Positions 35,302-45,317 of a stretch of 50,208 nucleotides of DNA are shown one piece after another. Under the pieces are notes generated by a model. That model was not told the DNA's origin. It ran no database searches and worked only from the letters and a program-made list of their open reading frames with translations. Made by a program: the position numbers and the translations under genes. How positions within the stretch are numbered: the stretch's first letter is position 1; every line of letters begins with the position of its first letter. Source of the stretch: Synechococcus sp. AG-686-F08 (GTDB taxonomy: Bacteria; Cyanobacteriota; Cyanobacteriia; PCC-6307; Cyanobiaceae). The DNA lies in the NCBI GenBank assembly GCA_003210315.1, contig QCVQ01000009.1, forward strand, positions 1 through 50,208, given 5' to 3'.

Positions 35302-37644
35302 GTGACTCTCACACCAAGCCGCACAGAAAAGCTAGATACACAAATTCCTGGGGTCGCCCCTACCAACGGCGACTTCCCAGCCAGCGCTCCCGCAGCCAAC
35401 CCGGTGTTTTATCGCACCTACAGCCGTCGCTTGCCCAAAGGAAGAGAAAGCTGGAGCGAAGTTGGAGAACGCAATCGATCGGGGCTTCTCAAACTTGGTT
35501 CTCTCAATGCAGAGGAAATGACCCTGTTAGCGAGGATGCAGTCTGAGAAAAAAGCGCTTCCCTCCGGACGCTGGCAATGGATTGGTGGCACCCCATGGAT
35601 CGAGAAGCCGGAAAATTTCTCAGGGGCCTACAACTGCACTTCCACCAATCTTGTGGATTGGGAAGCTTTCGGCCTCATGATGGATCTGGCAATGATGGGT
35701 TGTGGCACAGGCGCGATCATCGAGCCCCACTTCATTGATCAGCTTCCAGTCGTCACCAATCCGATCGAGGTTCTAAGCGTTTCAAATATCGGAATTACAC
35801 CAGCAGAAAAGCGCCAAGAATCCACGACCTACACCATTAATGATCACAGTGTTTCCATCAAGGTGGGAGATACAAGACGTGGTTGGGTTGATAGCTACCA
35901 ACTGTTATTGGAACTGAGTAGCGACCCCCGTTTCGAAGGGCAAACAGTTGAGGTCAACATAGATCTATCTGACGTACGTCCCGTCGGCGAAACCCTCAAG
36001 GGTTTCGGTGGAATGGCGAACCCAGTAAAACTGAAGGATTTATACGGCCGTGTAGCAAAATTGCTTGGCAAAGCAATCGGAAGAAAGCTCACATCCATTG
36101 AATGTTGTCTTCTGATCGACGAAGCAGCTGTCACGATTGTGGCCGGTAACATTCGACGCAGTGCAGGCATGCGTCAATTCGCATCCGATGACACTTCAGC
36201 TGCTGGCGCCAAGGAAAATTTGTGGCAACAGGATTCTGAAGGTAACTGGAGGATTGATCCCGAGCGCGACGCGCTGAGGATGGCTAATCACACCCGTGTT
36301 TATCACACTCGCCCAAGCAGAGATGTTCTTCTAGAAGCAGTTACTCGTCAATTCCATAGTGGAGAGGGAGCCATTCAATTCGCTCCTGAAGCGCTTGCCC
36401 GCTCGAACGCAGATTTGCTGACAACACAGGAATTGAGAAGTGAATTTATCGAGATTTATTGCGACCAAGGTCGTCAGGAAGCAGGGCGCTGGCTTGAAAA
36501 GAATTATGGTCCAATCTCAGAAGAGGAACTTGAGCATCGACTGAGCCGCTACGGATTAAACCCATGCGGTGAAATCCTCGGTGCAGATTTCCATTGCAAC
36601 CTTGCAGAAGTACATCTCAACCAAATTGACCCCAAAGATGAAGCATCGCAGCGTGATGCATTCCGAGCTGGTGCACTCTCCGTTGCTTGCCTGCTCAATC
36701 ACAAGTTTGAAGTAGAGCGTTACCGCCAAAGTCGAGCTTGGGATCCAATCGTGGGTGTGAGCTTTACTGGCTTATTCGATTTTTTCGTTCATGCTTTTGG
36801 TACACCATGGCTGCAATGGTGGGAGGCAGGGAGGCCTGAGACTGAAGAAGGTCTGCACTACAAAAAGCAAGAGGCCGACTACTTAAAGCGGTGGAAATCA
36901 ATCGTGAATGAAACCGTATGGGATTACTGCGATCGTCATGATCTCAGGCGTCCGAACCGCTGCACCACCGTTCAGCCCGCTGGAACAAAAAGCCTGCTTA
37001 CGGGTGCTGCGCCTGGATGGCATCCACCAAAAGCTCAACGCTTTATTCGCAGGATTACATTCCGCAAAAACGATCCTGTAGCAATGGCCTGCATGGATTA
37101 CGGCTACACAGTGGTTCCGTCTCAGTCCGATAAGGATGATCAAGGTCGTCTCTTGAACGATCCGTTCGATTCACGCTGCACAGAATGGTTGGTAGAAATT
37201 CCTACCGAGGTGAGTTGGGCAAATCTGCCCGGAGCAGACACTGTGGACATCAATGCATTCTCAGCATTGGCACAGTTTGACTTCTACATGCAAGTGCAAT
37301 CACACTTCACTGCCCACAACACATCGGCAACGATCGAATTTCGTGAGCATGAGATTGAACCATTAACTGATGCTCTTCATCAGACGATCCAAGAAGGTGG
37401 AGGTTACATATCTGCAGCACTCCTTGCTCGATTCGATGCGAATGCAACCTTCCCTCGTTTGCCATTCGAACCAATCGACGCACAAACCTACGAACGCATG
37501 CAGAAAGAAGTCATTGAACGTCGAGTCAACAATGACTTCTTCGACGCATTGCAAAGGTATGACAGTGGAGAGCTGACGGAAGCAGGTCCGGCTGGTTGCG
37601 ATTCTGATAAATGCCTTTTGCCCCTAGCAAAACCCAATAGCTAA
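35302..37644 (+). CDS. nrdJ: Adenosylcobalamin-dependent ribonucleoside-triphosphate reductase (class II)
   Basis: A 780-residue monomeric class II ribonucleotide reductase that makes deoxyribonucleotides with vitamin B12 as radical source. The reactive cysteines are visible: YNCTST (C112), NPCGEILGADFHCN (C422 and C432) and the C-terminal redox pair GCDSDKCLL (C766, C771). NPCGE also holds the active-site Asn and Glu. The PAGTKSLLTGAAPGWHPP loop near residues 559-576 fits the NrdJ barrel. The start is GTG 35302. Most marine Synechococcus rely on this enzyme, tying DNA synthesis to pseudocobalamin/B12 status. It is divergent from the MscS gene and followed by a terminator. Confidence 0.97.
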   Translation: MTLTPSRTEKLDTQIPGVAPTNGDFPASAPAANPVFYRTYSRRLPKGRESWSEVGERNRSGLLKLGSLNAEEMTLLARMQSEKKALPSGRWQWIGGTPWIEKPENFSGAYNCTSTNLVDWEAFGLMMDLAMMGCGTGAIIEPHFIDQLPVVTNPIEVLSVSNIGITPAEKRQESTTYTINDHSVSIKVGDTRRGWVDSYQLLLELSSDPRFEGQTVEVNIDLSDVRPVGETLKGFGGMANPVKLKDLYGRVAKLLGKAIGRKLTSIECCLLIDEAAVTIVAGNIRRSAGMRQFASDDTSAAGAKENLWQQDSEGNWRIDPERDALRMANHTRVYHTRPSRDVLLEAVTRQFHSGEGAIQFAPEALARSNADLLTTQELRSEFIEIYCDQGRQEAGRWLEKNYGPISEEELEHRLSRYGLNPCGEILGADFHCNLAEVHLNQIDPKDEASQRDAFRAGALSVACLLNHKFEVERYRQSRAWDPIVGVSFTGLFDFFVHAFGTPWLQWWEAGRPETEEGLHYKKQEADYLKRWKSIVNETVWDYCDRHDLRRPNRCTTVQPAGTKSLLTGAAPGWHPPKAQRFIRRITFRKNDPVAMACMDYGYTVVPSQSDKDDQGRLLNDPFDSRCTEWLVEIPTEVSWANLPGADTVDINAFSALAQFDFYMQVQSHFTAHNTSATIEFREHEIEPLTDALHQTIQEGGGYISAALLARFDANATFPRLPFEPIDAQTYERMQKEVIERRVNNDFFDALQRYDSGELTEAGPAGCDSDKCLLPLAKPNS

Positions 37645-39618: not shown

Positions 39619-39999
39619 AGCCAAAATGTAATCCCATTGTCCAACAATCTGCATCCACCTCAGCCGTCTGCTCCCGGGAGAGCAAGATCAGAAGCTTGCG
39701 GGGAGAACTAGCACGAGTCCCAAAACATGAATTAAGCCTGCTCACAAGCTTTTCGCACCTTTGTATGGATCGGTACAAACATGTTCGTAGCGATACATCA
39801 TGCTTAATTTGGCGGCGATGGCTGCTCACACAAGAACACATGACTGGGGAGCAAAGCCAAACTGCTCCTTTTTTATGCAAAAGCCAAAGAAAAATCAGGC
39901 AAAACAGGGTTTCACGATGGCATGCAAGGAGTGAAATGGTTTTTGATGCCCGACCACTCGGGACAAAAGCAAGAAACAACAGATCGACGCACAGAGGCC

Positions 40000-40028
40000 T
40001 TTACAAGCCGTTACAGAAGTGTTACAAT
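40000..40028 (+). promoter_or_regulatory. Sigma-70-type promoter for candidate sRNA 1
   Basis: TTTACA (40000-40005) and TACAAT (40023-40028) are separated by exactly 17 bases, close to the consensus -35 and -10. Transcription would start near 40035, just before the first stem of the candidate RNA. Confidence 0.65.
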
Positions 40029-40034
40029 GTACAA

Positions 40035-40123
40035 AGCGTTCCTTGGACGGGATCTGCAGAACGAAACCTCTGGGAAGAGGCTCTAACTCAAATAAAGGTC
40101 TCTGTGGAAAGAGATCTTTTTTT
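40035..40123 (+). ncRNA. Candidate small RNA 1 (TTGGACGGG loop)
   Basis: About 89 bases between a good promoter and a terminator. Stem 1 is CGTTC/GAACG (40037-40041 with 40059-40063) with a 17-base loop containing TTGGACGGGATC. Stem 2 is CCTCT/AGAGG (40067-40071 with 40076-40080) with a GGGA tetraloop. The third is the terminator, AGGTCTCT with AGAGATCT (40096-40103 and 40110-40117), then seven T. No open frame with coding features fits. The layout is that of a trans-acting RNA with an exposed loop. I do not recognise it as a named cyanobacterial RNA. Confidence 0.7.
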
Positions 40124-40180
40124 ATGCTCGTCAAAATTTCCTCTCTTCCCCAGAGCAGATCAGTGCTAGAAGACAGAATG

Positions 40181-40204
40181 AAGGCGAGAGGGCTCGCCTT
40201 TTTT
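40181..40204 (+). terminator. Strong terminator (end of possible RNA 2)
   Basis: AAGGCGAG pairs perfectly with CTCGCCTT (loop AGGG), followed by six T. The sequence right after it, ATGCTCG, also follows the terminator of RNA 1, which suggests a duplicated unit. The 5' end of any transcript ending here is not clear; the preceding 55 bases show no shared loop. Confidence 0.75.
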
Positions 40205-40281
40205 CATGCTCGACGCTCAATGGTTACAGCTATTGAGAACTTTTCTCACTAAACAAAGGCGAAGGAGACCCAAAATAGTTT

Positions 40282-40372
40282 TGTGACTCTTTGGACGGGG
40301 TCAACAGTCCCACAACCATCAATCTTTTGCGATTTAGAAGCCCGCGAAAGGTTGAGGGACTTTGCTTTTTTT
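40282..40372 (+). ncRNA. Candidate small RNA 3 (TTGGACGGG loop)
   Basis: A second unit with the same architecture. TGTGACT (40282-40288) pairs with AGT and CACA (40306-40308, 40311-40314; two-base bulge), leaving a 17-base loop that contains TTGGACGGGGTC. The terminator is GC-AAAG with CTTT-GC (one bulged G, nine-base loop) and seven T, ending at 40372. The two loops share eleven of twelve positions with RNA 1, while the stems differ in sequence; that is the pattern expected when loop identity and pairing are kept. No clear promoter was found, so the 5' end is approximate. Confidence 0.62.
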
Positions 40373-40390
40373 GATACAACGAATAGGAAG

Positions 40391-40408
40391 CCTAAACGTT
40401 AGGTTTTT
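40391..40408 (+). terminator. Second terminator downstream of sRNA 3
   Basis: CCTAA pairs with TTAGG (loop ACG), followed by five T. It probably backs up the terminator ending at 40372. Confidence 0.6.
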
Positions 40409-40434
40409 AAGTTCCCCGTCCAGGACCAGGACTG

Positions 40435-40460
40435 CCCCTACAGGAAGACACCTGTTGGGG
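40435..40460. repeat. Stem-loop in the sRNA cluster
   Basis: CCCC-T-ACAGG pairs with CCTGT-T-GGGG: nine pairs around one T/T mismatch, loop AAGACA. No T-run on either strand. It lies next to CCCCGTCCA (40414-40422), which is complementary to the shared sRNA loop. Further small stems follow up to 40500. Confidence 0.5.
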
Positions 40461-40819
40461 CTTGCCTGAATCACAGCAGTGCAGGGGCCCATCCTGCAAT
40501 GCTTAGCAATCTGAGAGGTAGAGCTTGCAGAGCTTGGTGAAGTGCTACTGCTGCCGAGTGTTGCAGGCAGCCACTTGTGGCAATGATCAACCAGTAATCA
40601 GTTACCGCACGTCCACATTGCTCAAGGTCTCCAAATCGATTAATGAATCCACCAAGATGTTTCAATGGAAGCACTGAAGTGAAATAATCACAAAGAGGCC
40701 TAGCTCAATGTCGAAGAACTAGAAATTAATTAGTGCTAGCTGAGAGTTGAATGATAAACTCATAAAAACCATAAAAAATAAAATTTCATATGGTTTAATA
40801 ATATTAGTAAATAAATAAA

Positions 40820-41161
40820 ATGAAAGATCTTGATCGCCTTCTATTAGGTTGTATTGCTGGTGGTTGCCTTGGCGCATCGACATTTTTCCTGTTAGATGCA
40901 CTATTAGCCGAACAGCCTGCCCATGCAATTGAGACTAGATCTGAAAGGGCATTGGAAACCCTTAACGAGGATTGGGGTTCAGAAAGCAAGAAGGAAAAAC
41001 TCAAAACACAGATTGCTCGTGAATGCGCAAGCGCTCGCTCAATTCGTGATCAGGCAATCGCATTGGCAGAACAAAGTAGGACAATTAATCAGAATCACTA
41101 CAAGCAAGCACTCGCTTTAACTCAGCGAGCCAATGCTTTATTGGCCAACAGATGCTCATAG
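40820..41161 (+). CDS. Small exported/anchored helical protein
   Basis: A 113-residue protein with an N-terminal hydrophobic segment (LLLGCIAGGCLGASTFFLLDALL, read as two parts about residues 7-30) ending in PAHA, which could be a signal-peptidase site. The rest is a long amphipathic helix pair with two Cys (ARECASA, LANRCS) that could be disulfide-linked. It is probably periplasmic or membrane-tethered. No family recognised; the coding pattern is convincing. Confidence 0.65.
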   Translation: MKDLDRLLLGCIAGGCLGASTFFLLDALLAEQPAHAIETRSERALETLNEDWGSESKKEKLKTQIARECASARSIRDQAIALAEQSRTINQNHYKQALALTQRANALLANRCS

Positions 41162-44878: not shown

Positions 44879-45317
44879 GAATGGGGGATTCGGTTACGAC
44901 CATTCTCACCACAAGGCTCGAATCAAAACCACATACGGTCATTGACGAACATGATTCCACGGATGAAACCAGCTGGACTGCGTGAAGTGATCCTGTCCAT
45001 CCATGGACTGAAAAGCCATTGCTTTGCAAGGGATGCGAGAAACCAATAGAAGGAAAGAGTGGTCAAACAAAAGAAAACCCCGCCAAAGGCAGGGTTTCTT
45101 GACTTCTTTTTGGGAGTGTTACCTAGTTGCCACTCCGTGAAGAAGCCCTCCTCACAGATTTATTGTGCTTCTCAGCTGGCACTGTGCCAGTGATCGTCAA
45201 CACTTGATTGACTGGCACAAGATTGAATGAGTCGATAAGTGCCAAGCGGCTTACGAAGGTTAGAAAGACTCCAAGCATCTACGGTTTGCTTTGGTCCAAT
45301 CAAAGAAGAGTGAATCG
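44879..45317. other. Intergenic region, one terminator
   Basis: 439 bases between the small exported protein and the nuclease gene. It holds the stem-loop at 45075-45097 and nothing else that can be supported. Confidence 0.5.
45075..45097 (-). terminator. Terminator of the nuclease gene
   Basis: AAACCC-C-GCC pairs with GGC-A-GGGTTT (loop AAA, one internal mismatch). On the minus strand it is followed by a T-rich tract (TTTTCTTTT), which suits the nuclease gene upstream on that strand. It could also work in the other direction. Confidence 0.7.

Follow-up and report, generated by a model that had tools for sequence, protein, structure and literature searches.

Two neighbouring RNA genes with a common 5' motif in Synechococcus: a small RNA candidate behind an HLR1-like box and a multicopy structured RNA associated with isiA

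Are the two short units that lie side by side near position 40,000 of a 50,208-nt stretch of the Synechococcus sp. AG-686-F08 genome (hereafter the window) duplicated copies of one small RNA, or distinct genes that carry the same sequence motif? The window is contig C9 of a 1.58-Mb assembly (64 contigs, 59% complete), and an earlier reading of its sequence (the original prediction) had proposed that the units are tandem candidate sRNAs which arose by local duplication, each displaying the same motif in a 17-base loop as a seed for mRNAs. By pattern search, we found the motif at both of the places claimed for it, namely as TTGGACGGGATC in unit 1 (40043-40054, plus strand) and as TTGGACGGGGTC in unit 2 (40291-40302, plus strand). 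The exact pattern TTGGACGGGRTC occurs at four places in the 1.58-Mb genome, compared to none for the reversed control pattern: two at this locus, a third within the unit 2 paralogue of contig C8 and a fourth on contig C7, which by eye looks like coding sequence. Two RNA families, across two genera (that of the source genome and a second one), carry the motif at their 5' end in the form YUUGGACGGG(A/G)UC, which bears out the proposal of two candidate sRNAs with a conserved common motif in changed surroundings; it is altered in seven copies of unit 2 (L212, L214, L217, L218, L221, L222 and L226). The plain 17-base loop did not survive, as in the consensus folds of both families the motif forms part of a small hairpin, (U)UGGAC lying in its loop and the G run in its stem. 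As a whole, the earlier observation was partly confirmed and its interpretation partly supported.

Unit 1 (40033-40123, plus strand; putative 5' end) is a candidate sRNA gene of ~90 nt, matched by a covariance model, R2, which scored 103.8 bits at the locus (the locus copy was part of the model). It was present in 7 of 31 genomes of the genus, including the source genome, at E <= 0.001, and further forms were found in the second genus (L098, L099, L102 and L110). When the family was scanned with R2, matches were obtained in 15 of 300 genomes, other genera among them; five matches from other genera (L100, L101, L103, L104 and L105) covered the terminator only, as judged by eye, and were excluded from unit 1, and two weak matches (L111 and L113) were likewise kept out of the unit-1 counts. 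The intrinsic terminator claimed for this unit was recovered at 40094-40123 (plus strand) by both a terminator scan and the fold, and it is conserved, with one base pair altered on both sides in two of seven copies. Apart from the motif and the terminator, hardly any of the sequence is constant, and the folding of unit 1 alone is nothing unusual (z = -1.05). A consensus scan identified a promoter (TTTACA, 17 nt, TACAAT; 40000-40028, plus strand) with 10 of 12 matches. The 17-nt-spaced promoter of the original prediction is therefore present, but as 1.3 such sites are expected by chance in the region, the match alone is weak proof; unit-1 copies of relatives show a similar promoter layout. From these features we infer that unit 1 is transcribed as an sRNA.

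Two further features were seen upstream of unit 1. A hairpin at 39848-39878 (plus strand; GGGGAGC...GCTCC, then TTTTTTATGC) resembles the unit 1 terminator and perhaps marks another small transcript. Elsewhere (L042, L028, L056, L023, L052 and L044), unit 1 lies behind two small ORFs that resemble membrane proteins (MTDYSTAIFGLIAFTG... and M(N/S/T)TQDLLVLLVSFGTACFALNIYKLN...), which in one genome (G023) are both duplicated together with unit 1; the MTDYSTAIFGLIAFTG... ORF gave nothing above cut-off against Pfam and NCBIfam.

The promoter region of unit 1 also contains an HLR1-like box, TTTACAAGCCGTTACAGA (40000-40017, plus strand), a candidate RpaB site at approximately -35 to -18 of the putative start, which matches 14 of the 16 HLR1 positions. 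According to a 2026 review (PMC13421787), HLR1 has the form KTTACAWW-N2-KTTACAWW, and RpaB represses those genes in which it lies between -38 and +23, such genes being released in high light. The box at the locus falls within this interval as an imperfect sequence match and relative to a predicted start. Among 16 unit-1 copies scored, the best HLR1 match was at -35 in 13 (12-15 of 16 positions), and 11 of the 16 had a shuffle p <= 0.012, although the copies are not all independent (L092 and L106, for example, have identical upstream sequence). Scanning the window with at most 2 mismatches gave 3 matches where 0.61 were expected; 3 of 100 shuffles also reached 3 matches. The box was absent from three of the four second-genus unit-1 copies. 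Given its position at about -35, repression by RpaB and release of unit 1 in high light would follow: RpaB would block the unit 1 promoter in low light and free it in high light. This would make unit 1 similar to PsrR1 (SyR1), an RpaB-controlled high-light sRNA, in that an HLR1-like box would confer light control (PMC13421787); the parallel is one of function only, and PsrR1 is 131 nt long as opposed to ~90 nt for unit 1.

Unit 2 (40283-40470, plus strand; ~190 nt) is a multicopy structured RNA whose conservation as a gene and whose structure are both evident from computation. Its putative 5' end was taken from conservation and its 3' end from structure. Model R3 scored 100.7 bits at the locus (again with the locus copy as part of the model), and the fold of unit 2 over 193 nt is unusually stable (z = -7.0; 0 of 200 shuffles). 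The conserved 5' domain (40283-40361, plus strand) comprises a 5' hairpin and a long closed hairpin and is marked by covariation. Specifically, across 21 distinct rows 97.2% of cells were paired and 19 of 25 pairs showed two-sided change, compared with 8.5±1.8 for shuffles and 5-8 when the structure was slid; since the alignment was fitted to the structure of the model, these pairing and covariation figures are favoured. Ten copies from the genus share a near-invariant 5' end, GTGACTCTTTGGACGGGGTCAACAGTCCCAC, and the long hairpin. An R1 model matched 16 of 300 family genomes, while R3, which was built from 23 matches, found 33 of 400 genomes at E <= 0.05 (including weak, probably chance matches) and 20 of 34 second-genus genomes at E <= 0.01; two matches to these models, L079 and L081, were dismissed by eye as chance. 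By eye, many second-genus copies are complete, with a palindromic box, GTCGTCCTTGGACGGGATCGAC, a hairpin, an antimotif (a stretch able to pair with the motif) and a GC-rich terminator. Where the second genus has this terminator, the locus has a 3' hairpin, CAGG-actGCCCC...GGGGCttg-CCTG (40427-40468, plus strand), and the RNA probably continues to ~40470. By contrast, the seven-T terminator first assigned to unit 2 was not upheld: its hairpin is conserved and its T run is not.

Regarding the wider distribution of these RNAs, a phage collection gave no match, and a scan of named records returned 86 stretches, only 5 of which (from 4 genomes) belonged to Synechococcus. In one genome (G360), unit 2 is found in two close same-strand pairs (C2:109286 and 110432; C27:11193 and 11600). 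A probable relative, L215, with the box TTGAGAACTTCTCTCAC, was detected in a genome of a third genus (G055) at E 6e-5.

The origin of the pair by local duplication did not hold. A search with 40000-40440 gave matches in 9 of 31 genus genomes, the source genome included. Most of them covered either the initial 128 bases, which correspond to unit 1, or the later part, which corresponds to unit 2, and the two kinds were far apart on the same chromosomes. Since relatives hold the two units at separate places, we consider unit 1 and unit 2 here to be two neighbouring genes and reject duplication. The ATGCTCG reported to follow the first and second T runs is indeed there (with one C intervening at the second), but unit-1 copies at other sites likewise finish with a T run and then ATGC or ATGG. 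The third terminator proposed between the units was found as a hairpin and T run at ~40176-40205 (plus strand), the terminator scan giving this stem on the minus strand only; stretches resembling it precede several dispersed copies of unit 2. Model R3 also scores unit 1 at the locus (E 0.0048), but a stretch inside a long ORF (35302-37644) scores similarly (0.0063), and hence the unit 1 score is no proof of kinship with unit 2. Beyond the 5' motif the units have little in common and their promoters differ: they are two separate RNA families. Chance or a terminator artefact as the explanation was rejected on the strength of conservation and covariation.

The upstream region of unit 2 has a conserved promoter element (40230-40254, plus strand), defined by the alignment of the ten genus copies and accompanied by related boxes in the second genus. 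It includes a palindrome, TGAGAActtTTCTCA (40234-40248, plus strand), centred at about -42 of the putative start, and it is followed by a weak, putative -10-like hexamer, CAAAAT (40271-40276, plus strand), at which the alignment has an A-rich stretch. The CTATTGAGAACTTTTCTCAC of the source genus and the TATTGCGAACGTTTATCACTCGCAATA-like boxes of the second genus (not in all copies) occupy the same promoter position. Allowing at most one mismatch, the second-genus box, in a search form drawn from the unit-2 promoters themselves, occurs at 16 places in 34 genomes, compared to 0 for the control; 11 of these are unit-2 promoters, 3 lie upstream of 5S rRNA-like genes and 2 are isolated. A unit-2-like box with one mismatch lies directly upstream of what by eye are 5S rRNA genes at L258, L262 and L263. 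The palindrome has a 7-1-7 look, which we take to resemble a Fur box and which suggests that a Fur-type regulator perhaps acts there.

The presence of unit 2 in a genome was associated with that of isiA. IsiA was called at more than 600 bits, the next matches having ~160-220 bits and being presumably psbC-type. In 43 near-complete genomes of both genera, unit 2 was found in 20 of 24 with IsiA and in 0 of 19 without it (Fisher p ~1.7e-8, with shared ancestry ignored). Among 19 near-complete genomes of the second genus, the 12 with unit 2 were the 12 with IsiA, and the other 7 had neither; among all 34, IsiA was found in 19, 17 of which had unit 2 (the exceptions being G327 and G332), and the carriers of unit 2 without IsiA (G380, G337 and G384) were 53-79% complete. 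In the source genus, 8 of 12 near-complete genomes with IsiA carried unit 2, compared with 0 of 12 without. The four near-complete IsiA-positive genomes G001, G010, G016 and G024 had no detectable unit 2 in the genome or in ~8 kb around isiA, and three incomplete ones (G002, G003 and G015) showed nothing convincing within ~8 kb of isiA, these vicinity scans having used default filters and having covered a shorter span than 8 kb wherever a contig stopped. Unit 1 occurs in IsiA-positive and IsiA-negative genomes alike and thus lies outside the iron association.

The neighbourhoods of unit 2 also include iron genes. ORF clustering at 43 unit-2 loci (21 of them inspected) placed a flavodoxin ORF within ~1.5 kb at 6 loci and an IsiA-type ORF equally close at 6; with Pfam we identified a flavodoxin at L071, a PSII/CP43-type protein at L202, L212 and L218, and a Crp-type regulator upstream at L071 and L080. 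The C8 copy of the source genome lies ~2.8 kb before isiA, and near the locus copies of unit 1 and unit 2 we recognised no iron gene. At five loci (L071, L072, L080, L201 and L219) the gene order is kept as Crp-type regulator ORF, small ORF, unit 2, small ORF and flavodoxin ORF, with Pfam run on some members only of this arrangement. The association of unit 2 with isiA is a computational observation, and it suggests that unit 2 may be tied to the iron-starvation response. In this it would be like IsaR1, an iron-starvation sRNA of Synechocystis PCC 6803, the likeness being limited to the proposed role. IsaR1 is 68 nt long (PMC6202907), as opposed to ~190 nt for the multicopy unit 2.

How, then, might two RNAs from separate families come to share one motif? 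Computation shows that the RNA genes are conserved and how unit 2 is structured, and it establishes the common motif, the promoter boxes and the association with isiA; transcription, regulators, a seed function and targets are what we infer for both RNAs. With a confidence that only just exceeds our doubt, we favour the view that the locus encodes two independent trans-acting sRNAs with one 5' seed, unit 1 being linked to RpaB and light and unit 2 to iron. A common 5' motif with little else alike and with different promoters is what leads us to read the pair as one seed with two inputs. A promoter and a terminator are predicted for unit 1, and unit 2 has a conserved promoter element. Unit 2 would be transcribed from its palindrome promoter as a member of a dispersed iron-starvation family (isiA, flavodoxin), and both RNAs would present their 5' seed to mRNAs and alter translation or stability.

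The seed function can be compared with the distribution of complementary sites. In 34 genomes the exact complement of the motif was found at 40 places, of which 30 were at these RNAs and 10 elsewhere, compared to 14 for a control pattern, which lends no support to exact mRNA targets. Eight of the 10 outside places were inspected, and the sole 5' UTR kind among them occurred in two close relatives, upstream of what is by eye an FKBP-type protein gene (its start codon was located in G347). The notion that the motif is an mRNA-pairing seed is hence plausible, but the search, which was for the exact complement only, yields neither a conserved target nor an excess over control. That lack of excess would be expected if the 5' hairpin with its UUGGAC tip were bound by a protein, which unit 2 would sequester or deliver without any pairing to mRNA. 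The motif can sit in a hairpin in both families, and the stable fold and multiple copies of unit 2 would suit such a role; however, no result points to a partner protein, and the near absence of constant sequence in unit 1 outside motif and terminator speaks against it. We regard protein binding as unlikely.

A second possible partner for the motif lies within unit 2 itself. The antimotif CCCCGTCCAGG (40414-40424, plus strand) is able to form 11 pairs, including 2 G-U, with UUUGGACGGGG of unit 2 (p = 0.007 against shuffles), and the motif of unit 1 is another possible partner for it. From 47 loci we obtained 40 distinct rows and, with L210 and L228 left out, 38 usable copies of unit 2; the antimotif outperformed shuffles at p < 0.05 in 21 of these and was missing or not significant in 17. 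At L210, 11 pairs were found, and the longest second-genus antimotif, ATCCCGTCCAAGGAC, forms 15 pairs. Three copies (L087, L201 and L080) are without the antimotif yet keep the motif, and others without it are the seven copies with an altered motif named above. The antimotif precedes the 3' hairpin and, in the long form of the RNA, would fold back over the seed and produce either an off state or cross-talk with unit 1. The 5' end of unit 1 pairs with the unit 2 antimotif at -21.9 kcal/mol, nearly the same energy as unit 2 self-pairing (-21.1), and this is the basis for proposing mutual titration: the antiseed would hide the seed in cis, the light RNA would bind the antiseed in trans, and iron and light stress would be merged. 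We put this forward tentatively, as a rather unlikely extension.

Two mutually exclusive pairings of the motif could instead form a switch between the 5' hairpin and a motif-antimotif helix, with unit 2 controlling iron genes in cis, as their leader or attenuator. In line with this, unit 2 lies upstream of isiA or flavodoxin on the same strand at seven loci (L071, L072, L201, L080, L217, L218 and L219). However, it is downstream of isiA at L202, L212 and L221 and divergent at L208, the locus copy has no recognised iron gene nearby, a strong terminator closes many of the second-genus copies, and across the 43 loci no neighbour family is common to more than 7. We thus think a cis-acting role improbable and retain two trans-acting sRNAs as the preferred reading.

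Could either RNA be one that is already known? Rfam 15 gave no match at the gathering threshold for 40000-40470, and for 39650-40850 at E <= 10 it gave five matches, all far below gathering scores. Elsewhere in the window, a Cyano-1 RNA (RF01701) was found at 45097-45161 (minus strand; 50.6 bits, above the gathering score). For Yfr103, an abundant picocyanobacterial ncRNA, a published report (PMC5069720) gives 7 paralogues of 290-328 nt in CC9605, occurrence in KORDI-49, KORDI-52 and WH7803, and an imperfect palindrome at -58 to -29. Unit 2 resembles it in being multicopy in marine Synechococcus and in having, upstream, a palindromic element that spans about -53 to -29 of its putative start. 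In the genome that we take to be CC9605 (G273), however, R3 found one match as opposed to 7 paralogues, and the copy there (L203) measures ~190 nt between the start of the motif and the terminator as opposed to 290-328 nt; R3 found no match in G210, G281 and G009, presumably KORDI-49, KORDI-52 and WH7803. With these presumptive strain identities, unit 2 departs from Yfr103 in the number of its copies, in length and in the strains that carry it, and we reject the identity of the two as very improbable, noting that a strongly diverged form could escape R3. The original statement that the units match no Yfr-type RNA therefore holds for the comparisons made (Rfam, and Yfr103 by copy number and distribution). 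Least credible of all is a small peptide encoded in the conserved part of unit 2, a reading we rejected: one GTG frame is open across the 5' domain in the locus copy, but in 3 of 10 copies it is shifted by a 1-nt insertion, the first 31 nt show almost no variation at third positions and changes track base pairs.

The arrangement recalls Yfr1/Yfr10 and Yfr2 of Prochlorococcus, where several sRNAs carry one motif and its complement is in another sRNA (PMC6778093); in our case, by contrast, the complement lies within a motif-carrying RNA. The literature that we searched, mostly open-access and in part accessible, yielded no iron-linked trans sRNA of marine Synechococcus, and either RNA may already be reported under another name.

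Iron and light limit marine Synechococcus. Unit 2, which in the near-complete genomes of two genera was found only alongside isiA, is a candidate, open to direct test, for a role like that of IsaR1 in Synechocystis, and a seed common to both RNAs predicts cross-talk between iron and light stress. If the seed reading is true, both stresses could, through this pair, reach a common set of genes.
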